From contig NW_003109110.1 of the NCBI RefSeq assembly GCF_000003605.2, positions 99,084 to 123,923 of the forward strand: a stretch of 24,840 nt of DNA. Direction: 5' to 3'. The translations under genes were made by a program, and so were the position numbers. Positions within the stretch are counted from its first letter, which is position 1; each line of letters starts with the position of its first letter. Positions 5,638 through 23,372 of this stretch are shown here, piece by piece. This DNA is from Saccoglossus kowalevskii (lineage: Eukaryota > Hemichordata > Enteropneusta > Harrimaniidae). The notes under the pieces were generated by a model, which saw nothing but the letters and a program-made list of their open reading frames with translations, had not been told where the DNA came from and ran no database searches.

Positions 5638-8600
5638 CTATAAAGAGAACGAATAATGAGACATGAAATATTGAATAGAAGCATTTGTTATTTTGTATTA
5701 TGTAACTTTTGCGATAGTACCTTATTAAAATCACAAATTTATTACGTGGGGTGTATTGTCCGTAAACTCCCATCGCCTATGAAACAAGCAGCCTGTCGGC
5801 TGAGATAGCTCCGCTGTTAGCAATGCACATGGCAATTAAAGAACAGAAGATATCATTACAAAATGACAAATCTGAGAGAGGTCCACATGTAGTACCTATA
5901 TATGTATATCAAAGCAATTGGACTTGCGGTTTCAACAAGAAGTCGAAAATATCACTTTTTACTAAAAATGACAAAAATATTCACCAAAATTAGAGAATTG
6001 AAGATATCATCATGAAATGAACAAATCTGAGAGAAGTCTACCCAAGGTACATATACACCAAGTATCAAAGCATTCAGGCTTGTAGTTTTCAAGAAGAAGT
6101 CGAAAAAATAAAACATTGACACGGACGACGGAGACGGACGACGACGGACAATCACTCATATGATAAGCTCCGCTCGACAAAGTCGACAGCGGAGCTAAAA
6201 AAGATCCAGCAGAGAAAATCTAAGTTTAGATCATTGCTTAAATGTTGATGGAATCTTTCCGTGGTATCCATAATATGATAGGTTGTTATCAAATGTGTAT
6301 GGCAATATATTTTTTTGGGCCCAGCATATGTGAAACCATATAAGCCTACGTTAAATAAAAACGAACGAAATCAGTCTTATGACCACTACTCAATTTTCAG
6401 TGCATGTACTAACGATTTGTTTACACACATCCTTCATTATATGAATCAAACAAAATATAGTGCAAAGTTTTAAACTCTTTGTACCCAAACTCCGCACACT
6501 TTATACTATAGTAATATTACTCACCTTAACGTAAGGCTTTAAATCATGTGACTTCCATGTATCCAAATCAGCCTCAGTCACCAGCCCAGATCTAAAATAT
6601 GAGATTAAAATAGAAGAAAAAAAATCTCACCAGTCTAGAAAACAAAACGACCATTGAGAACTAGTAATATAACTCTCGATCACGACAAGTACATGGCTGT
6701 CGCAGGCAGAGACTCTACTTATCAAGCCACACTCACTCACGGGCACTGAGTTCCTCAAGTACGCCGCCAACGACTGTGATGAGTTGAGGCTTGAAAATTG
6801 CCTGAAAAAAGCTAACAACTTATTTTTGCTTCTCAAGACAGGGGGACAAGTCATCAACTGTCGATTGTGCTTACCAAAATAAAATATTTGATTGAGAAAA
6901 CCGTGTTCATATTGCCCTAACCAATATAACCATCTGTTAGATATTAGGATGAATTAGTTTCACGCCACGTGAACAAGAAGCTAGCTTAATGTTTTTAGTT
7001 GCAATTTAGTTGTGTGTATCATGTACTTGTTTGTGCATGTGAAACAGAATCTCAAAGTCATTGGTTGAAATTAAACTATGGTTGCAATACGTAGCTACAT
7101 TCATTGGCCTACTATATTAAACATGGAGCAAATAAAGCCTAACGTCATTTTAAAGATTACATCATTCTACGCATACGTCGATTGTATCGTGGAATGTAAC
7201 GCCACGCTGTGTCATTCACAAACTTACAATTTACAGTATACATTGGGATACTTTGCCGCCTGGCTGATATGCTGTTTCCACTCGTCTATGTACTTCCCAT
7301 CTTTAATGTCCGGTTTCCCAATGTGGTCAATCATCAGTTTCAGTCTTGGGAACTTTTCAGCTAACTCTGCTGCGTAGCGTGATTTATGAGGTGGTCTGTA
7401 TCGACAATGGAAACAAAACTAGTCACGTGTCAGTATGACGTCAGGGTGAACTAGACATCTAGCATTGCAAGCGACCAATACAAATTTACCCGAACACACA
7501 ACACGTATTATTTACATACGTTCTCCTTAGCCGAGGTAAAAGAATGGACCACTATTTATTGGGTAAAAAACATGTATCGTTGCATGTTCGTTATCAATGA
7601 GATCTCGACGGCCATCTGTGTTTAAAGTACATTAAACAGAAAGTAAAAGCCGACTGGGGGTTACTTCCACGACTTTTCAGTTTATTCTGAATGACCATTG
7701 ACAGTTATCTACAATAACTGGTAATATTTGTAGCAGTACATTTTAGAGTTCCACAAATTTTACCTACCCCCAATCGGCGTAACTGTGACACAATGAAAAC
7801 TACCTGATGAGCAGGTCAAAGGTTAAACCTCTGTTCTCTATAATTGACAAGCTTTTGTGTACTTCAGGCCGCCCCAACCAATCAGAATCTTCGAACTCTG
7901 TGATGTATCTTAAACCAACCAATAACGGATTGGTCCTCAGATTATCTACAATGGCTCCCACCTATAAATCAGACACCAAATAAAGAAGGTTAGATGTGAC
8001 AGAGGTGCCCGATTCCCTGCAGAAAATATGTTTTTATTTCTTTGCTTGCTTACAGCATAAATCACAAATAAACATAAATCAGTTGACAAGATATGTTAAT
8101 GTTATTATGTCTTGTATAAACTATTGTAAATAAAGTTTTATTCAGAGAGAATTTATATAGATGTATTTGGGTATTGGAAATAGTTGATAGTATGAATTTA
8201 TGCGGATGTGGGATATACTTATACATATATATAAATAATCCAATTTTGATGTTTTTCATGTCTGAAAGGAGGCAATTGTTTTGATTTCTCATTTAATTGT
8301 GTGTTCAAATCCCTTCGCTCACCCCTTTGAATAGTATTCAAACGCTTGTTGATTCACAAAGACTCGCCTCTGGTCCTAAAGACCACAGCAAATTGAAACA
8401 ACGAATGCATAGCCCTGGAGAATTTCTGTTTTTTTCTGCAACATGACTACTGACCCAAAACAAATACTAGTAATCGCTGTTTTATCTGGCATTATGTTTA
8501 TTTTATTAACACCATGTTATTATCCAGTGGTTGCTGAGTAAACAGTGAGAAAATAATGCAACATTGGTTATTGGAATGAAACAAATGCTTACCTCATCGG

Positions 8601-10231
8601 GTTTTGATAAATCTACCCATCCCACGACTCCAACTATACTGCTGTGCTTACGGGCTAAATCAAAGATCCAGTCTGAAATAATAATAACATAAATATGTTG
8701 TTTTACATTAACATAAATATATTAATATATTGCATGCGTCGAGGGGCATTTGGTGGGTAGGATTTCTGAGAGTTTTGATCCTAGGAATGCAAAGGCTGAA
8801 TTTTGTCACAATTTTCAAAAGATGATCCATACATAGTCAGTCTGCATACAGTAAAATACTTTATTTTCGCTTGGAATTAATTTTTGCTATTTTCGCTGAA
8901 GGAATGATTCAGTGAAAATAAAATCCAGCGAATATACATTTTTTCCTATATTTCACATTCAACTTGTCGAAAATCAGTGAAAATAAATTCCATACAAATC
9001 CACCCAAAAATTCTTTTTAGCAAAAATTAATTCCAGCTAAAATAAAGTATTTTACAGTAGTTTTGTATTCGTTAAGAAATTTCTCTGTGAAAGAATACAT
9101 ATAATACTATATTGAAACATTATGCTGCATCATTTTATTCGAAATCGAAAGATGGTAAAAAACCTGCATGGTTTGTTTCACAAATTTTGAACATTTATGG
9201 ATATTGTAGAAAAATACATGAAAGTGGGTGATATGCTGATTATGGCATTCAAAGAATGAAAGAAATATAAACTTAAATAAATAAAGCAAAGCTTAACAAA
9301 GATCCTATACTATTTACTCTAGTATATGCACTTATCACATCCTGGAAAATGTATGAAATGGAATATTTAACTAATATATTGACAGTTAACAGATAATGAC
9401 GTACGACAATTCAAATATGACCCGACTTACAATTTTCATCTAGGGTGTTATTAACCACTTGTACAAATATAAAATTTTTCACAGGAATTGAAGAATTCTT
9501 CAACTCGTCTTCAAGGTCTTCTGGGAGGAAGCTTCGAAACAAGGCAGAATGTTCTTCTGTTGGCCACGCATAATTGAACTTCTTTAAATTCCAAAAATCT
9601 AGTAAGAAATAAGTGGTAATCGAGATTATATAACTAGGAACTAAAACAGTTATGCTTTAATTATTGCATTACCACAAGAATACATCATGATAAAACCAAA
9701 ATATCCAAGAATAGATTTTCAGGAAAGGTCAATGACTCGACAATGCACACAAAACGCATAAAATAATGGTAAAGACAATGAGCCCATTCCATCGTGAGTT
9801 ATTTGCATATACAGGAAACAACGCCCCTTTTCAAAACTCGTGAAACATGGAGGATGTTTAAACGTACTACATAACAGACCCATTGAGACGGAATTATGTG
9901 AAAACACGTACACATGGGTTCACATACTTGCTTGGATGTTACTGACATATATTTTGATGTTTTAGACTAGATTTATACGCCAGACGTTTGATTATATGAA
10001 TATTTATACAAATTGCGTTCTAATCAATTGTCAGTTCATTTTTGTTACTAGCTCTTCAGAGATTCACACTCCAGGATTTCGTTCACCCGACTGCTGCTGA
10101 AAAAAGACGAACGAAGCAAACATATGAGCCCCTGGGACAGGGTACGGTTATACTGGTAAACAATTTCATTTAGTAACTTACGACAGTGAGTCCACGGTTA
10201 TCGGCGAATTGCTTTGCACATTCGACTGCAT
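5437..10231 (-). CDS. Amidohydrolase (COG3618 / Amidohydro_2 type), seven exons, frameshift in exon 1
   Basis: Predicted metal-dependent hydrolase of the family that includes L-fuconolactonase-like and 2-pyrone-4,6-dicarboxylate lactonase-like enzymes. It forms a TIM barrel and is probably cytosolic, since no signal peptide is visible. Exons, minus strand: 10231-10182, 9598-9431, 8672-8593, 7961-7804, 7395-7228, 6591-6525, 5637-5437. Exons 2 to 7 join in phase at consensus GT-AG sites. With the missing codon position counted, the protein is about 297 residues, the usual family length. Landmarks are HFWNLKKFNYAWP just after the metal motif, WIFDLARKH (about 75-83), the DHIGKP motif (176-181) with a probable metal or active-site His177, NVYCKLSGL (about 204-212) and CVFGSDYP (242-249) with the conserved Asp247. 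Exon 1 encodes MQSNVQSNSPITVD followed by out-of-frame codons for HCH. The window is two bases short inside the D-x-H-x-H motif, so translation as printed stops early in exon 2. Substrate unknown. Confidence 0.88.
5807..6196. repeat. GACGGAC-type interspersed repeat with inverted ends and an internal duplication
   Basis: The 9-mer AGCTCCGCT at 5807-5815 is matched in inverted orientation by AGCGGAGCT at 6188-6196. A second AGCTCCGCT at 6166-6174 forms a terminal hairpin with the right end. Inside are two diverged direct copies of about 120 bases (5834-5950 and 5987-6108), each carrying a GATATCAT block, an ACAAATCTGAGAGA block, a TATCAAAGCA block and an AGAAGTCGAAAA block. A GACGGACGACGGAC-rich stretch (about 6118-6149) follows. 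It sits in intron 6 of the amidohydrolase. From memory, repeats of this style are common in molluscan genomes, but I cannot confirm the family here. Confidence 0.75.
6525..6591 (-). CDS. Amidohydrolase exon 6
   Basis: 67 bases, one base completing Leu209 plus 22 codons (SGLVTEADLDTWKSHDLKPY and two more). The donor is GTGAGT and the acceptor AG at 6592-6593. This is the short connector between the NVYCKLSGL strand and the C-terminal Asp motif. Confidence 0.88.
7228..7395 (-). CDS. Amidohydrolase exon 5 (DHIGKP motif)
   Basis: 168 bases, entering in phase 2 and leaving in phase 2 with donor GTAAGT. It encodes the DHIGKP metal-site motif (bases 7311-7328) and ends in NVYCKL. The plus-strand open frame over this stretch is a shadow of this exon. 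Confidence 0.92.
7641..7787. repeat. Small foldback element in amidohydrolase intron 4
   Basis: GCCGACTGGGGGT at 7649-7661 is repeated in inverted orientation at 7766-7778 with one mismatch, enclosing about 105 bases. The flanks agree only loosely, so the element limits are approximate. Confidence 0.5.
7804..7961 (-). CDS. Amidohydrolase exon 4
   Basis: 158 bases, phase 0 in and phase 2 out. It encodes 52 codons from VGAIVDNL to FDLLI and the first two bases of Arg153. Segments GLRYITEFEDSDWL and ENRGLTFDLLI are typical barrel strands of this family. Confidence 0.92.
8593..8672 (-). CDS. Amidohydrolase exon 3
   Basis: 80 bases, two completing Tyr74 plus 26 codons (WIFDLARKHSSIVGVVGWVD, then LSKPDE). 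The donor is GTAAGC and the acceptor AG at 8673-8674. Confidence 0.9.
8847..9059. repeat. 213-bp foldback (MITE-like) element, TACAGTAAAA ends
   Basis: The left end (8847 to about 8893) is nearly the reverse complement of the right end (about 9015 to 9059). The arms share TAAAATACTTTATTTT, GGAATTAATTTTTGCT and flanking bases, about 40 paired positions in all. There is no coding capacity, so it would be non-autonomous. It lies in intron 2 of the amidohydrolase. A second element with the same outermost bases lies at 21260-21473. Confidence 0.8.
9431..9598 (-). CDS. Amidohydrolase exon 2
   Basis: 168 bases, two completing the second His of the metal motif plus 55 codons beginning FWNLKKFNYAWP. 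It ends in phase 1 with donor GTAAGT. The first bases require the previous exon to end in C, which exon 1 at 10182 does. Confidence 0.9.
10182..10231 (-). CDS. Amidohydrolase exon 1 with a 2-base deficit in the metal-binding motif
   Basis: The ATG at 10231-10229 has A at -3. Codons read MQSNVQSNSPITVD, then one lone T, then CAC TGT C before a perfect GTAAGT donor. Joined to exon 2, CAC TGT C+AT TTT TGG reads HCHFW, the expected D-x-H-x-H-F-W motif, but in a frame two bases away from ITVD. The upstream frame leads to a stop in exon 2. Either the printed sequence lacks two bases or this copy is broken. Confidence 0.7.
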
Positions 10232-14045: not shown

Positions 14046-14291
14046 CACTTCATTTGAGTATCATACCATATAATGACACTCTTATTTGAATACCATGCAA
14101 TCTAAGACCCCTTTAATTTGAATATCATACCATATAATGACACTTTCATTTGGTTACTATACCATATAAATACCCTTCCGTCTATTTGAATGCCATATAA
14201 AAACACTCTCATTTGAATGCCATGCTATATAAGGCCCCTTGTAATGAAATATACCATACAAGGACTCTCTCATTTGAATATTTTACCAAAC
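14046..14291 (+). repeat. Degenerate minisatellite, about 31-bp unit, eight copies
   Basis: About eight tandem units of 29-33 bases, each roughly CACT(C/T)TCATTTGAATA followed by CATACCATATAATGA, lying in the first intron. CATTTGAA and ACCATATAA recur in most units, while a CACTCT or CCCCTT block begins each unit. Units are diverged, so the array is old. Confidence 0.85.
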
Positions 14292-14522: not shown

Positions 14523-14582
14523 ATGCATGCATGGCGAAAAATAACACTGGATCTGGTCGTGATCATATGTGCTGCCACACAG
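14523..14582 (+). CDS. Reductase exon 1, signal peptide
   Basis: 20 codons, MHAWRKITLDLVVIICAATQ: a basic start followed by a hydrophobic core, as in secretory signals. The ATG follows immediately after the acceptor AG at 14521-14522, and the donor is GTAAGG. Confidence 0.85.
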
Positions 14583-17500
14583 GTAAGGTCACTGCACTGT
14601 TGACAGGAGAAAAACGAGTTAGTTCATATTCGAAAACCTGGTAAATAGTTCACCAAACATTTACATAACCAGGCTGAGTGACTAACTAAAGAAATGAATT
14701 TAATTAGCATACTGTTTGGAGCTGTTTTACATAAAAAGGAGCATTTAATAAATTAGTAATGTTCCATCTTGGTCAAGCAGATACCATGGCCTCTTCTCAA
14801 GGGTCTATGTTTAGTTAGCATTCACTCTCGATGAAAGTCAGTGTCTGGGTGGCAGTCTACTACTTTTCAGGGAAATACAGTGCTCGTAGATTGCATACTT
14901 GTGTATTTATAAACTAAGATTGTTGTGGAATATATTTAATAATAAATAAGCTGTTTATCTTCGGCCAAATAGGGAGACACGTTTTATTAGGTTAGGTAAC
15001 TATTGTAATCAGGGTATTTGAAACACTGAGTAAAAACAAGTCACGTGGCTCTCGCTCACAATGAGATCTGGGCGGCCATTTTCGTCAAAAAGTCTAGTGT
15101 ATAACTATACCTTTACATTTTTTGTCTCGGACCCGACACGAGATAGTGAACGATTCATGACAGTATAGTTTCTTTTTGTAGTTCACGGTTACGGCGCTAG
15201 TAGATAGCGATAAATGCGGTGTTACAAAGAGCTGCTTTCATGACCCCCCGTACTGCAAGACACCTGACTGTGACGTATTGATCACGTGGGAAGATACGCA
15301 CACTTTTTACGGCGAACCAGCCACCTCATTCGGAATATGGGGGAAAACCTGGCAACATGAGGACTGGGTTGGTTTTGGACTATCACGTGACAAAGAAATG
15401 GTAAGACGTATTTTATTCTCATGGATTGCAACGTGTCACGAATCACCGCGCAGCACGCGGTTAAATTTCACATTTAAACCTTTTTACTTCCAGACTTCCT
15501 TGCCCAAATTTTTCAGCACTTTTTTCTTATACTTGTTAATATTTCAGGACATGAACCCTAATTTTGGATTCAACAGACAAAATTTGAGTCAGTTTGGGTA
15601 TTTTTATCCTAATCTTCAAAAGGAACAAAAACGTGTTCATTTCAAAGTTTATATTTTGTGTTTAAGATGTCTGCCGCCATCAGTGACAGGAGAACGCGTG
15701 TAATAAACCAAAACTACGCACACATATACGTTTTAAAAGCGGATTGAAGACTGAAAAATAGTTATTTTTAAATTGTGACTTCTTTATCAATATATTTATT
15801 ACAGTTGAAAACACTGCCGGATTTTGTAAAATGTGTAATCTAGTAGCTTTGGAAGATGAATTTCATTTCCCCCTTGCGTGTGCTGAGGGCACACCACCTT
15901 ATCAATTCATTGTGCATTCGAATTATTTCAAATTTCAATCTCTATTACGCTCAACAGACACTTATGTATTACAATCTGTAATGCACTACATATAAAAAGG
16001 AATTTTCATCATGGTTTCTTTCTTTAATTTCACAGTGATTTAATTTAATTTATTTTTTGTAAATATATATTTTGGACTTCATTAGTATTTTGTATTTATG
16101 TATAATCTGCTACTGTCATTTCAACGTGAATATCTGATCAGAAAGGGGAGGGGTTGCTCACGACCTACGACAAAGATTTTTAATAAATCGGTCACTATTT
16201 TCTCGCTGATCTCAATTTACATTTCTTATGAAAGTTGCACCCTCGAGCTGTTCTATGACGTAATAGTCACGCACATTGATCAAATAAATAGTTCTATATG
16301 GCTAGTCGCTTTCGATCTGTGATAAAGTGCATTTAAAAAATCAGTATGTTTTATTGACGGACTATGGTCGAGCAAGATAATATATCGACACCATCACCGG
16401 TGTCTGAATTACCATTCACATCACAGAAGCGCCACTGCATACTCCTGTTTATACCGTAGGGGGCGTTTGTAGGTAAAACTTGAATCACTTTGCGCAAAAG
16501 ATCTGTACGCACATATTCTATGCCAGCACACATTTAGTTACATGAACACGTCATTTGCCGAACATTTTGCAGGACGATACTGATGTTTGGGCATGTATGG
16601 AATTGGAGAATAGAAGCGTCGTACTCGATCATTCTTTCAACAGGTACGATCACAGGAACCAACAATTGGACCAGGTAAGTGGCAAAGAGAAAGGCATGTT
16701 CTATATGAACGGTGAAGGGGCTAGATTTCACCCTATATTTAGCTCGTGTTTACAACCGAGGACAAAATAGCGTGTACATTACATCTACATGAAACAGTCA
16801 CTCCATTTTGTACTCTGTTGTATATTTACTGGTCAGTGTTTACAGTAACATAAACGGGATGCAACGGACATATATTACAATATTCTGAGTTGTTCTATTA
16901 TATCTGCCACCGTGTCTAGTTTTCGATGTGACAGGAGTCGGGTACTGCATAGTAATTATAAGTCATTCTCCGAAATATACATCATTCGAGTATCGAGATT
17001 ATGACAATGTGCTATGTTTAACCACAGTCCCTGTGGTTAAACAGCTCGGCTACTCCTGTGTCTAATAATTATAATATTTTAATAATTAATTTTGTTTTGT
17101 GTAATTGCAGACTGGGGCACGTAATTTCCAGTATACTTACTGGAACGGACTAATGGAATGTACATTTGACCGCCTGAACTCCATAGAATCTCACGACCAA
17201 TTTTTTGACCTGCGTGATGGGCCGTATTATATGATAACCGCATTTGGCCCAAGTGCTCCGGGACCAGGAGGTAAGGTATCAGAGAAAACATAAAAATAAA
17301 ATTCTAAAATCTTGACAAGGAGAAAGGATCGTCCTACAATCACAGCTTCCTCGGTGTGTTGTTTTGAACCCCCGTCTATTGTGTATTCGTAAGTACTAGC
17401 ACGGCTGTTTTGAAATGGCCAATAGCCGTTCTAGAATTCCCTTAAAGGGCGGCAGTCGTCAATACAATTTTATTTACATGAAACACCGCGCTTTAACCTG

Positions 17501-20500
17501 GTTATGGCATGGTTTGGTATACGAGATCAAAATATTGAAACATCAACAAATTGACAAATTAAGCTACGTGTGTTCAGAACAACAATCTAATTGGTCAAAA
17601 CTTTCCATTGGCGACAGCTGTCACGGTGGTACGAATCAGTTAAATCGTGTTCGCGTGACGGCTACGCGCTCATGGTTTATAAGCCGTGACCATCACGTGA
17701 CTAGTTCACCTCGAGTTCGCACGGGGGGGGGGGCGTGTCTTTAGTTATAATTCATACATTATGCTTTGTTTACAGAGATACGAGTCTAGATGCTTTAATA
17801 TCTGACTTATCTTTTTTGCGAATTATTTTCTGTGCCAATTCACATACTTAAAAAACAATTCTATCACTGATCGACGACTTTCCCGGAAGTTGAAGATACA
17901 GCGTTTCGCATGCGCGCACATGTCATTTTGGGGTGTAGCGTGAACTTGTATGCGTGATATTGGGCTTCTGGGTGCACCAATCGATGTTACAAAAATAAAG
18001 TTCCCTTCTATCGATTATCAGCAAACTGACATGTTTGTATTTTCAGCCATGACAAAGTAGGAGTATTTTTGCACCCCAGTCTCGCTACTTCCGAGAAAGT
18101 CGTCAACTATCACTCTATAAGCGCGCCCTCTAGTAGCTACGAACTGCTTCTGTGGTGTAGTCGGCGAAAGAAGAAACGTTCACAGTTTTTCTATTCTGTT
18201 GATTTGTTTGTTCTGTCGATGTTTTTGTTTGTTTGTGAGACTTGATGTCAAATCACTTCACAGCCGAAACAAAAGTGTCCATTCCCTCTTCTTCGCTTTT
18301 ACACACCTACGCCATTTCGTTGCCATCGCTAGAGGGCCCTATTTATTTGTTCGGGTTAGGAACGCTAATGTTTACTGGGAGTACTAGTATTCGATTTTAA
18401 AAATACCAGTCATCCTAGACGCTTCAGGACCCGGAATGTTCCATGACAAATATCACATTTTCGGGTTAGCCAAATGTATGGAGATCAGGTGTACATACAT
18501 TACATGAGACTTCGCATTAACTAAGTTCAACCCCATCTTCAAACTACAGATAGTGTATATGCGAGAAAAGAGAAATTAGGTCAGCATGGCAGAGAACCCC
18601 TTGTATCAAGAGATATGATAGAATTCAATCAAATCACCGTATCGTATGGGAAAGAGAGGACGCCTGGCTCGTACAAGACACATGGTACGTACCAAGAATA
18701 TATTTATGTCCGATATCACGAGTTATTACAGTGTGTCGACGTCGCATTTTGTCGAGACAGCGTAATTCACAGCCTGGCATGTAGGCGTGAGTGGCGCCCT
18801 CGCCGGCCGAACGGCATCAGACTCCACTAATGTGTTGGGTTTGGAGCACCTCGAAGGGTGCAACTCAAGCGACCTTTTCCGGCTACGCAATTCATTGTAA
18901 CAGCAATTGCTCCTAATAAAGTAAAAAAAAGGTGATGCAGCAATACTTAAATAATTTGCATTTGACTTTGACCTAGCCCCACTATACTTGACGTATTTAC
19001 CTTGATTAATTCAATCCATTATACTAGGCGCCCTGATGATTACAGCATGGATCGGATTTGCCAGCGTCGCCTTGATATTGGCGAGGTATTTTAAACACAT
19101 GTGGCCAAATACAGAAGTACTTGGACAGAAAGTATGGTTTACGGTAAGTTGTCAATACTAGCATTTCCTCCTACGAAACTTTGTTGTTGTTCAAGTTCTT
19201 ATTACAGAAGCCCGTCGCATAGGAATTTTGATACTGGACGCATGGAGCCGGGAACAGCCATTGATGGCGTTGTATACAATCGAAACCTATTAAGGCTTGC
19301 CTACGCTCGTTCAGAATACACACTCCGACCATGTCATACTCTGTAATGTGCAACAGAACAATAAGTTCACCTTTTGATTTGTTTCTTTTCAGTTTCATCG
19401 AATTCTCATGATTATAGCTCTCATTCTGTGTATCGCTGCTTTTATCCTAATATTTGTCGTTAATGGCGGCTGGGTGAAATACGAGTACATTGATGACGTA
19501 AGTCTTTTTTTAGTTTCCTCTCTAACACAAAAATCACTAACCAACGCGAAAATCAGTAATTGCACCCCCTTCGTTTACTTATGAAATATTCAAATATTTT
19601 TTTAATTTTAGCCGGAGCACATCCATGCTATTATTGGTTGTATAGTCGTCTCGCTTGGAATTATTAACCCAATTCTTGCAATTTTCAGATGCGATCCCAA
19701 ACATTCCAAGTAAGTACACCGCTATACTTTACTCTACCGCCCTCTGCGGTGAACATGGCATTTGCTTTTGTCTATTTTGTTTGCACATAGTTCTAAAATT
19801 TGCACAAAGTAATCCAAAGTATGTATGTCGGAGATTCATCAGCTTTTATTGTTATGTGATATACACCAAGAAGTCGATATACATATGTGTATATTTCATG
19901 TTTACAGACGATGGATGTTTTCCTGGGCCCATTGGGCTATTGGCACAACAACGCATATACTGGCAGGTAAGATATTCCAAACTATAATCTTGTTAATGTA
20001 TATGCAGAAAGGTATTTATAAGACGAGATAAAATGACACAATTACATTTGACTGTGAAAATAATTTCATTGTCTAAAGTGACTCACCAAGCATGTGGATT
20101 TTGCCAACAACTTTTCTACCAGTGCGCCCTCTAGCGACTAAAAAAACTCTGTGACGTAAACAGTGACGGGACAGTAGTTCATGGCGTCTCCGCTGTTTTT
20201 CTATACAGGTTTTCGTCAATTGATAGGATATTTTCTTTATTGTGATCGAGGAACTACAATGAAACTCATTTCTCGCTTGGAACGACGCTCACTCTACGTC
20301 ATGTTGACGCCATTAAATAGCTCCGTCGCGAGAGGGCATTACTTGTAGAAAATGTGAATTTATTGGCGGTACAATCATGTCTTTTTAAATGAGACGTTAG
20401 ATTTAAGCACAGTTTTAAATGTTACACAATTAGCGTGAATCGATAGTCGATATCATCGACATTAAATTCAAAACAGTATACAGTGATCATTTTAGATTGT

Positions 20501-23372
20501 TTTATTATCTGGGCCGTTTGTTTGGTTCACAGTCGTCAACACATTTCTCGGATCGAAGTACGTGAGAGTACCAAGATATGCCACGTGGGTGTTGCTATTT
20601 TGGGTGCTCTGTCATATCCTTGTAGGAATGTTTTACGAAATATTGAACTGCGTCAACAACGAATCAAGTAAGTATTATAAGTAGTACCTGGAGCTGACAA
20701 AGGGGGCACTTTAGATAAGATTGTGTTTTTATAGGGGAGATAATGAAAGAAATCTAAATATGATTATAAGAGCTTGAAAATGATGCACTTCCGCAATTCA
20801 GGTTCACGGGCGGCGTTGTTTTCGGTTTCTGTGGTATCTGTGTCAACTCATGTTCTACTCAAGCTGATATCTCAAGAACAACTAGCTGTATTTAAATGAA
20901 CCTTGGCACGCAGCTTTTATATCACGAACACGATAACCGCGCGTCATGTCATGTTGGCTGTTTGTATATTTTGATATTTTTTTTATTAGACGCATAAAAT
21001 CCTTAGGAAAGGATAAAAAGGGTCTTACAGAAAGAAATTAAAAACAAACAAACTACAATCTAAAAAATAAAACAAAAAATAGAAACTTTTCTAAAAAAAA
21101 AATAAAACAAGTCAAAAACAAAAAAGTATATGCAAATATTTAATTCGAGAGTAAATAACATTTCAACTATGGATTGAAACTAAATGCTACATATTTTTTG
21201 TCTGGGTTCGTTATCAAATCCATCATTATGTTCATCAAGCAGTGTGTAGTCAGTGGTATTACAGTAAAACATGTTGAAAAAGCGGCATGCAAATTTAGCG
21301 AATTGTGGTAAAATGTTGATTTAGCGAATCTCTCTTGTCATTGCTGATTCTTTGTTTGGCGGCCATTTTGAATTGATAATAAAGTCATTAGCGACATCTT
21401 GAATTAGCGAATCAGTTCTCTCGCTAAATTCGCGAAAAAAACATGCTCGCGCGAAAAAGACATGTTTTACAGTTTATTCGTTGAAATAGTCCCAAAAAAT
21501 CTTGGTATCCTCGCGTCACGTGTTTGTTTCTCTCCCATCATCGGGTTCTCTGCTCAAAATACAATGATCAGTAAAACACTGAACGCGATGGCGGGAGAGG
21601 GTGGATTTTCAGTGACATGTCTGTAGTTATTTGGTCGTAGATATAAAACAACGGCAGACAAAGAGAAACTGAGACGGCTATCTAGCCTACAGCGTTACAA
21701 ACATTAATATAATTTAATATGTAGCTGTACGAAAAACAAAATGGCGTCCAAGGGTTTATTTTATGAATTATTCCAATCTATTCCAGCCGCCTTCACGTCA
21801 TACAAGATGTATTCTGCAGTCAAATCAGATGCTAGCAGTAAGTGAATTTTCATGAGATGTACGGGCATCTACGAATCGTACACAAATCTTATGCATACCT
21901 GGCTTGCAGCTAGTGCTGTTGACATTGCATAGAGACCAGTATATTTAGACGAGAAAATAGAATCTCCCAAAGTACATTTAAATTGGAATTGTGTGTAACA
22001 TTTTTTGTGCAAAATATGAGAATTGTCCCAGACAGAATTAATATTCAAATTTAATTATTCATAGCTACTGTTCATATGTATTTCAAATATTACAACTTGA
22101 ATCATACATATATGCTTAAGGCAGATATATACTAGTAGTGATTTTTTTTATTATTTGCTATTTGTAGCTAAAGCAGAAGCGGATGCAATAAAAAGACAGC
22201 AAGGTGAGTCCGACCGTACACACAAGTTTGCTAGTTCTCTCGAGGGAGCACGGCCCAACAACATTCCCATACTCTCATATATTATGAGGGAAATTGAAGG
22301 TGGTTCTTGACCCCTTTATTGTTATTGTTAAGTTATTGTTGCTTTGAATGTTTTCAGCAAGAGTATTCAAATCGTCACCGTAAAAATATATAAATATATG
22401 ATTTTAGTCGTCAATGAAGACAAACACAGCTTTGAACACGATTTCCGTGCTTTAAACGATGTCGACTTCACTCATCAGCGAAAATGTTCGTCACATAAGC
22501 GATACATTGATAGGGGCGACATTTACAGGAAATCCTATTGTGGTTTTGTTCAGAAGAGTGGTTGTGTAAACACGACTTTAATAGCGTGTATCTGTCCATC
22601 ATTACGGCAACCCCCCCCCCAGCTCAGACCAGATGGTTCTATTTGCAACCACTAGATTATCTGAATACGACCTATTTTTCACAGAGCCAATGAATCAAAC
22701 TGGAGTTGAAATGCAGTCTGTAAATACCCAGGAATCAAACATTGACCCATATGACAACTACGGAATGGGTACAGTTAAAAAACAACCACCACCGCATGTA
22801 AGTAAACACATTAAATATGTTACAGTGTCTAGCGATATTTATGTTCGAGTAAGTTATCAAATCTACCATCGTGTTCATCCTCGTTCGTAGCTAGCAGTGT
22901 CTTCAAATACTCAATTACGCATATAAATATATAATCATCACACCATAGGATTGGTAAGTATTTATTTGCTTATGTAGCCCAATATGGACTCGGAGTCGCT
23001 AAAGCACAAATAGTATGGACATCCTTAACTCGTGCGTGTTAACCTACTTTGAATGAGCATACAATTTGGTCGATTACCACGCATTCCAGAGCCAATGGTC
23101 TTTTAGGTTCTACACGTGATGCGATCTGGATAGCCATTTCCACTTTCTAAGTTCGACGATCACTGATCAGGTTGCTTCATGCGGACACTTGACTCTTGTT
23201 AGTCGTCAAACCTTGTCATTGTAAACTCGCTGTGTTTTTTTTCTGTTTCACACCCTGCTTCTTTTGTTCATTTCAGAATTCCGTGTTGCGGACCACTGTA
23301 CTCTGTATTTACATCGTGTTTACTGTTGCTGTCGTAGTGTATTTGATAGTGGAAGTATCATTGAGAGACTAG
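14523..23372 (+). CDS. FRRS1-like: FRRS1-like DOMON / cytochrome b561 membrane reductase, 494 aa
   Basis: Probable transmembrane electron-transfer protein that reduces ferric chelates or another acceptor using ascorbate-type donors; activity is inferred from the family. Exons: 14523-14582, 15182-15400, 16573-16674, 17111-17270, 18550-18684, 19028-19143, 19393-19497, 19612-19709, 19908-19966, 20533-20667, 21787-21837, 22168-22203, 22685-22797, 23277-23372. All introns are GT-AG and all phases agree, giving exactly 495 codons with TAG. Layout: signal peptide (about 1-20), DOMON domain (about 28-175, with Cys32, 38, 45, 50, 101, 144), linker, then five b561 helices (about 226-247, 266-287, 304-324, 336-358, 369-390), a polar tail (391-463) and a final helix (466-490). 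Candidate heme ligands are His225 (KTHG), His266 (FHR), His304 (HAIIGC) and His340 (WAHW). Unlike FRRS1, no Reeler domain precedes DOMON. A closer relation to other DOMON-b561 proteins is possible. Confidence 0.93.
15182..15400 (+). CDS. Reductase exon 2, DOMON first half
   Basis: 73 codons, phase 0 on both sides. It encodes a Cys-rich start (CGVTKSCFHDPPYCKTPDC) and then strands LITWED and DWVGFGLSRDKEM, the hallmark opening of FRRS1-type DOMON domains. The frame stays open into the intron to 15703, so the long ORF seen there is read-through. Confidence 0.93.
16573..16674 (+). CDS. Reductase exon 3, DOMON middle
   Basis: 34 codons, phase 0 on both sides, DDTDVWACMEL through NQQLDQ. It continues the DOMON sandwich (the D-D-x-D-V-x-x-C pattern follows GLSRDKEM in the family). 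Confidence 0.92.
17016..17042. repeat. Perfect 12-bp hairpin upstream of exon 4
   Basis: Arms GTTTAACCACAG and CTGTGGTTAAAC flank a 3-base loop (TCC). The hairpin ends 68 bases before the exon at 17111, in the usual range just upstream of the branch point. Confidence 0.75.
17111..17270 (+). CDS. Reductase exon 4, DOMON end
   Basis: 160 bases, phase 0 in and phase 1 out. It encodes the last DOMON strands: FQYTYWNGLMECTFDR, then FDLRDGPYYMITAFGP, and ends in a Gly/Pro hinge (SAPGPG). Confidence 0.93.
17864..18114. repeat. Foldback element of about 250 bp
   Basis: The left arm CGACGACTTTCCCGGAAGT (17872-17890) is matched inverted by ACTTCCGAGAAAGTCGTC (18087-18104), with weaker pairing continuing outward through ATCACT/ACTATCAC. 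It lies in the intron between exons 4 and 5 and directly abuts the element at 18117. Confidence 0.6.
18117..18345. repeat. MITE-like element A with GCCCTCTAG termini
   Basis: The left end GCGCGCCCTCTAGTAGC (about 18121) is matched inverted by GCTAGAGGGCC at the right (about 18328-18338). The size is near 225 bp. The internal CAGTTTTTCTAT block and the ACACCTACGCCATTT region resemble the element at 20116. The termini fit the CTCF core (AGAGGGCGC). Confidence 0.55.
18550..18684 (+). CDS. Reductase exon 5, linker and first heme histidine
   Basis: 135 bases, two completing Asp181, 44 codons, one base of Gly226. It reads DSVYARKEKLGQHG onward to RTPGSYKTH and joins the next exon to give KTHGALM, the start of the b561 core. 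The acceptor (CTTCAAACTACAG) is good and the donor is GTACGT. Several weaker in-frame AGs lie further in (18581, 18594, 18612), so the left limit carries some doubt. It is symmetric (phase 1/1) and could be skipped in frame. Confidence 0.82.
19028..19143 (+). CDS. Reductase exon 6, b561 helix 1
   Basis: 116 bases, phase 1 in and 0 out. It encodes ALMITAWIGFASVALILARY and then FKHMWPN. The ALM-x-x-AW and ARYFK patterns are typical of the first core helix of FRRS1-type b561 domains. Confidence 0.93.
19393..19497 (+). CDS. Reductase exon 7, b561 helix 2
   Basis: 35 codons, phase 0/0. FHR with candidate heme ligand His266, a hydrophobic helix, then NGGW, matching the GGW turn of the family. Confidence 0.94.
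19612..19709 (+). CDS. Reductase exon 8, b561 helix 3
   Basis: 98 bases, phase 0 in and 2 out. HIHAIIGC (ligand candidate His304) is followed by the NPILAIFR end of the helix. Confidence 0.94.
19908..19966 (+). CDS. Reductase exon 9, b561 helix 4 start
   Basis: 59 bases, phase 2 in and 1 out. RWMFSWAHWAIGTTTHILA carries candidate ligand His340 in the W-x-H-W motif. Confidence 0.92.
20116..20348. repeat. MITE-like element B with CTACCAGTGCGCCCTCTAG termini
   Basis: The left end (20116-20138) pairs with the inverted right end (about 20325-20348): CTACCAGT-GCGCCCTCTAGCGAC against CTACAAGTAATGCCCTCTCGCGAC. It is about 233 bp, non-coding, and lies in the intron between exons 9 and 10. Its interior shares blocks with element A. 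Confidence 0.65.
20533..20667 (+). CDS. Reductase exon 10, helix 4 end and helix 5
   Basis: 135 bases, phase 1/1. VNTFLGSKYVRVPRYATW leads into VLLFWVLCHILVGMFYEIL, the last core helix, and ends CVNNES at the cytoplasmic tail. Confidence 0.93.
20985..21130 (+). repeat. A-rich low-complexity tract
   Basis: Intronic stretch dominated by A runs broken by single C or T (AAACAAAC and AAATAAAAC patterns). It may be the tail of an old retroposon, but no body was recognised upstream. Confidence 0.5.
21260..21473. repeat. 214-bp foldback element, TACAGTAAAACATG ends
   Basis: The left end (21260-21305) and inverted right end (about 21420-21473) share GTAAAACATGT, a run of A/T with GCG, GCATG and AAATTTAGCGA. 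There is no coding potential. The outer bases match those of the element at 8847-9059. Confidence 0.7.
21741..21837 (+). CDS. Possible alternative first exon (tail-only isoform)
   Basis: An ATG with near-optimal context (AAAATGG) opens MASKGLFYELFQSIP, which runs without a stop, in frame, straight through the acceptor of exon 11 into AAFTSYKMY. Spliced on, it would give about 113 residues: the polar tail and the final helix only. A TATA-like ATATAAAA at 21641 lies 100 bases upstream. Chance openness over 15 codons is quite possible. Confidence 0.3.
21787..21837 (+). CDS. Reductase exon 11, tail
   Basis: 51 bases, phase 1/1, encoding TAFTSYKMYSAVKSDAS in the cytoplasmic tail. The acceptor is CTATTCCAG and the donor GTAAGT. 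Small and symmetric, so skippable. Confidence 0.85.
22168..22203 (+). CDS. Reductase exon 12, tail microexon
   Basis: 36 bases, phase 1/1, TKAEADAIKRQQ plus one base. The acceptor TATTTGTAG and donor GTGAGT are both good, and the frame agrees on both sides. Confidence 0.8.
22685..22797 (+). CDS. Reductase exon 13, tail
   Basis: 113 bases, phase 1 in and 0 out. A polar stretch with EPMNQTGVEMQSVNTQ, DPYDNYGMG and the proline patch KKQPPPH. No domain was recognised. Confidence 0.88.
23277..23372 (+). CDS. Reductase exon 14, C-terminal membrane helix
   Basis: 31 codons and TAG. NSVLRTTVLCIYIVFTVAVV through YLIVEVSLRD is a single hydrophobic helix after the polar tail, as in FRRS1-type proteins. 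The acceptor is strong (pyrimidine tract then TTTCAG). Confidence 0.92.
   Translation, partial: NSVLRTTVLCIYIVFTVAVVVYLIVEVSLRD

Follow-up and report, generated by a model that had tools for sequence, protein, structure and literature searches.

A two-base deficit at the D-x-H-x-H motif of an otherwise open amidohydrolase gene in Saccoglossus kowalevskii

The stretch of DNA analysed here, referred to in the following as the window, comprises 24,840 nucleotides from the hemichordate Saccoglossus kowalevskii (contig NW_003109110.1, positions 99,084 to 123,923). It is AT-rich, with a GC content of 30-43% per kb (24 bins), and carries eukaryotic, intron-bearing genes; no Rfam match was found in the window. 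One of the genes is an amidohydrolase gene of seven exons on the minus strand, running from 10231 down to 5437. Exon 1 (10231-10182) has 50 bases, starts with an ATG and ends at a good donor, GTAAGT, which follows 10182 directly (from 10181). Exon 2 (9598-9431) completes the second His of a D-x-H-x-H motif and continues with FWNLKKFNYAW. Exon 3 (8672-8593), exon 4 (7961-7804), exon 5 (7395-7228, with a conserved DHIGKP stretch), exon 6 (6591-6525) and exon 7 (5637-5437, with a conserved GSDYP stretch and ending in TAA) all follow in phase. Joined together, exons 2-7 give 279 open codons plus the stop, without any internal stop or frame break, and every intron is of the GT-AG type.

Several repeats were also observed. 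In intron 2, an inverted repeat at 8847-9059 has 38-base arms that are 82% complementary and lie 137 bases apart, and it overlaps a perfect 18-base pair, which makes it a palindromic, MITE-like element. In intron 6 (5806-6197), the perfect 12-base inverted repeats TAGCTCCGCTGT / ACAGCGGAGCTA are 368 bases apart and may represent the termini of a small transposable element. Outside the gene, a tandem array at 14052-14280 consists of 3.6 copies of a 64-base unit with 69% matches, and can partly be read as a 32-base unit.

A second gene is arranged head to head with the amidohydrolase gene, at 14523-20667 on the plus strand and on to about 23372. Its product matches the Pfam profiles DOMON (46.3 bits) and cytochrome b561 (39.5 bits), and presumably resembles ferric-chelate reductase 1. 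Ten exons of this gene are in phase, and further C-terminal exons were placed by eye only.

The family of the first gene was examined with the protein encoded by exons 2-7, using collections of prokaryotic sequences, solved structures and profile libraries. Against PF04909 (Amidohydro_2), this protein scored 143.1 bits, well above the cutoff of 26.4; the match begins only at profile position 64, and exon 1 does not share a frame with the other exons. In the case of NF052480 (L-fucono-1,5-lactonase), exons 2-7 covered profile positions 9-286 of 287 with 163.8 bits. As this score, for exons 2-7 only, is below the equivalog cutoff of 400 bits, the gene is an amidohydrolase whose substrate cannot be assigned. 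The only strong match to a solved structure was 4dlf, named Amidohydrolase 2 (85.1 bits, E 4.8e-23, query residues 1-276), which we take to be the L-fucono-1,5-lactonase of Burkholderia multivorans. The 4dlf fragment is 30% identical to the exons 2-7 protein and shares with it CKLSGLVTEAD, DH.GKP and GSD.PV. Thus, the lactonase aligns over nearly all of exons 2-7, and the difference lies in the D-x-H-x-H motif, which is not in frame in our record. From the resemblance to L-fucono-1,5-lactonase, the gene would be a PF04909 / COG3618 amidohydrolase; COG3618 stands in the title of the paper describing the bacterial L-fucono-1,5-lactonase.

To describe the motif in the family, the best 80 of at least 574 confirmed bacterial sequences were used as relatives. 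They were selected by patterns covering a C-terminal region and the FW together with the residues that follow it, which introduces some bias towards FW; D-x-H-x-H was not required. In 79 of these 80 sequences, D-x-H-x-H is immediately followed by a hydrophobic residue and Trp, and its first x is A, S, G or T. The remaining sequence (L063) is unreadable at the motif: its match starts only at residue 50, and some of the sequence upstream is given as X. Among the best 15 of the at least 574 bacterial matches, with identities of 40-43%, 13 are from Planctomycetota according to their record titles, a count in which we presume Mariniblastus and Laterigemmans to belong to this phylum.

A preliminary description of this locus had placed a two-base deficit inside the motif, in a gene model whose other six exons are intact and in phase, and our analysis bears out both. 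Read from its ATG, exon 1 encodes 14 residues, the last four being ITVD, before it departs from the family frame. A second frame of exon 1 holds His-Cys-(His)-Phe-Trp; a stop codon is found just upstream in that frame, and the second His is formed by the last base of exon 1 together with the first two bases of exon 2, just as described earlier. Between the Asp codon (10192-10190, minus strand) and the His codon there is a single base, 10189. Because 79 of the 80 relatives have a single residue separating D from H, a full codon is expected at this position, so that two bases are missing, although which two cannot be assigned. As a pattern (Asp codon, one base, His codon, any codon, C, GTRAG), this arrangement occurs once in the window, at exon 1, with 0.01 occurrences expected by chance for a pattern that was devised after the site was known. 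Exon 1 was absent from the tblastn matches (25 best bins, bacterial relatives as queries), the stretch being very short; its identification therefore rests on the motif, the reading frame and the donor.

The record thus has no in-frame D-x-H-x-H ahead of the first hydrophobic-Trp pair and, if it is right, the frameshift in exon 1 is a disabling lesion of the reading frame, as expected of a pseudogene or null allele. The labels ‘metal-binding’ and ‘catalytic’ given earlier to the site are a different matter: the motif itself is confirmed, and its role in metal binding or catalysis is drawn from knowledge of the superfamily, in which D-x-H-x-H binds metal, rather than from the present data. L-fucono-1,5-lactonase, the nearest characterised relative, reportedly binds zinc and seems not to need it. 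Loss of function would follow whatever the role of the metal, because everything after residue 14 is out of frame, except where a different first exon or shifted splicing came into play. Translation of the spliced message from the ATG of exon 1 yields 45 residues, of which 14 precede the lesion; this product gave no solved-structure match up to E 10.

The remainder of the gene was then compared with the relatives. Near-invariant positions were defined as those at least 95% conserved among the 79 bacterial relatives (without L063), with positions before FW not counted. Exons 2-7 retain 40 of 42 such positions (0.952), the two departures being W to Y and C to F. When each of the 79 relatives was compared against the rest, the mean was 0.988 and the minimum 0.905, so that the value of the Saccoglossus gene is within their range. 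In addition, no frame break was found in the 837 further coding bases of the amidohydrolase gene. In the neighbouring gene, used as a control, the 1189 coding bases of the ten exons are equally free of stops and frame breaks; since the limits of these exons were set by eye to stay in phase, the control is weaker near exon ends.

As exons 2-7 show no further damage, any lesion must be young. Counting stop-making substitutions and splice-site bases, but not indels, we bounded the neutral divergence since the lesion at less than 0.046 per site (95%). The same bound falls to 0.030 or 0.020 at assumed ratios of 0.05 or 0.12 indels per substitution. The age of the lesion would therefore fall within the range of polymorphism or of very recent loss.

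A working gene would still be conceivable if the true first exon were elsewhere and 10231-10182 were a relic or a coincidence. The absence of exon 1 from the tblastn matches listed would fit such an arrangement, even though the stretch is very short, and so would an Asp-x-His-x-C followed by GC far upstream at 22492 (minus strand). This GC site was rejected, however, as it is about 12 kb off, lies behind another gene and by eye does not resemble a GC-AG donor. Moreover, Asp-x-His-x-C followed by GT occurs nowhere in the window, and the sole complete D-x-H-x-H in the six frames, at 23129, is on the plus strand and thus on the wrong one. In the His-Cys frame no upstream exon could be joined by an ordinary acceptor, because the stop is followed by no AG before the motif. 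The region reaching from 600 bases upstream through exon 1 contains 15 ATGs (13 of them upstream of 10231, with the upstream stretch read unspliced), and none of these enters exon 2 in the family frame; the first in-frame Met beyond exon 1 is residue 156 of 279. On these searches, which covered the window, a first exon elsewhere appears very unlikely. A tblastn search of the window with the 79 relatives other than L063 detected no second copy of the gene: of the 25 top-scoring bins, those with E<0.03 were all on exons 2-7. Ribosomal frameshifting was set aside, no slippery sequence being apparent by eye.

Alternatively, shifted splicing could produce an in-frame barrel protein without D-x-H-x-H, the gene working without the motif. 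Donor and acceptor sites between the ATG and the end of exon 2 were combined into 1089 pairs. An open frame down to the natural stop results from 17 of these, three of which use the natural donor; two of the three keep the whole of exon 2, starting at 9654 or 9633, that is 56 or 35 bases upstream of its usual start. Within the 120 bases beginning at the ATG, a stop codon precedes the only GT that has the right phase. None of the 1089 pairs, and hence none of the 17 open ones, yields the D-x-H-x-H that is kept in 79 of 80 relatives, and some open pairs would presumably arise by chance alone. The natural acceptor of exon 2, on the other hand, is good, and the two bases following it complete the second His. 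We regard a gene that works in this way as very improbable. As to the variant in which a real lesion is tolerated, the shifted splicing giving a motif-free barrel that acts as a metal-free enzyme or as a non-enzymatic derivative, we consider it somewhat less probable still.

There remain the two readings between which the preliminary description had left the choice, a recent null allele or pseudogene and a sequence error. This two-way choice stands, and the data favour neither side decisively. In the case of an error, the gene of the animal would be intact and two bases would have been lost from the assembly here. Draft assemblies are well known to contain single frameshifts in otherwise undamaged genes, and the deficit is indeed the sole lesion in a clean gene that keeps its near-invariant residues. 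An isolated two-base deficit with an intact remainder fits a working gene recorded wrongly equally well, which counts against a real lesion. Conversely, the ten neighbouring exons, free of stops and frame breaks, argue against a high local rate of indel errors, as does the absence of any other frame break in the 837 coding bases of the gene itself, and the deficit site is not a homopolymer run. An error is therefore a serious alternative, to which we assign somewhat less than an even chance.

From the observed deficit, the open remainder and the expected motif, we infer with a slight lean (a probability of roughly 0.5) that the two-base deletion is real and recent, making this copy either a null allele or a pseudogene of very recent origin. 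The deletion would have hit D-x-H-x-H in exon 1 of a seven-exon gene. The resulting message would encode 45 residues, its stop codon lying in exon 2, ahead of five further exon junctions. Messages of this kind are normally subject to nonsense-mediated decay, which would be expected here as well. Such an event is of a kind already known and an ordinary type of lesion: segregating loss-of-function indels and young pseudogenes likewise carry one small frameshift with the other exons and splice sites intact, and we saw no difference from them.

Regarding the family in animals, the relevant part of a 2026 review (PMC13406643) reports an apparent absence of bacterial L-fuconolactonase homologues from mammalian proteomes and gives the mammalian L-fuconolactonase enzyme as unknown. 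Because of this apparent absence, an animal gene of the family that carries introns has some interest of its own. Among the literature matches listed, the titles and abstract openings contained nothing on this animal amidohydrolase gene or its loss. If the deficit is an error, it is relevant only to annotators of this genome. If the deletion is real, the allele would be a clean and recent loss of function in an animal relative, itself uncharacterised, of the bacterial sugar lactonases, and thus a natural knock-out for probing the role of the enzyme.
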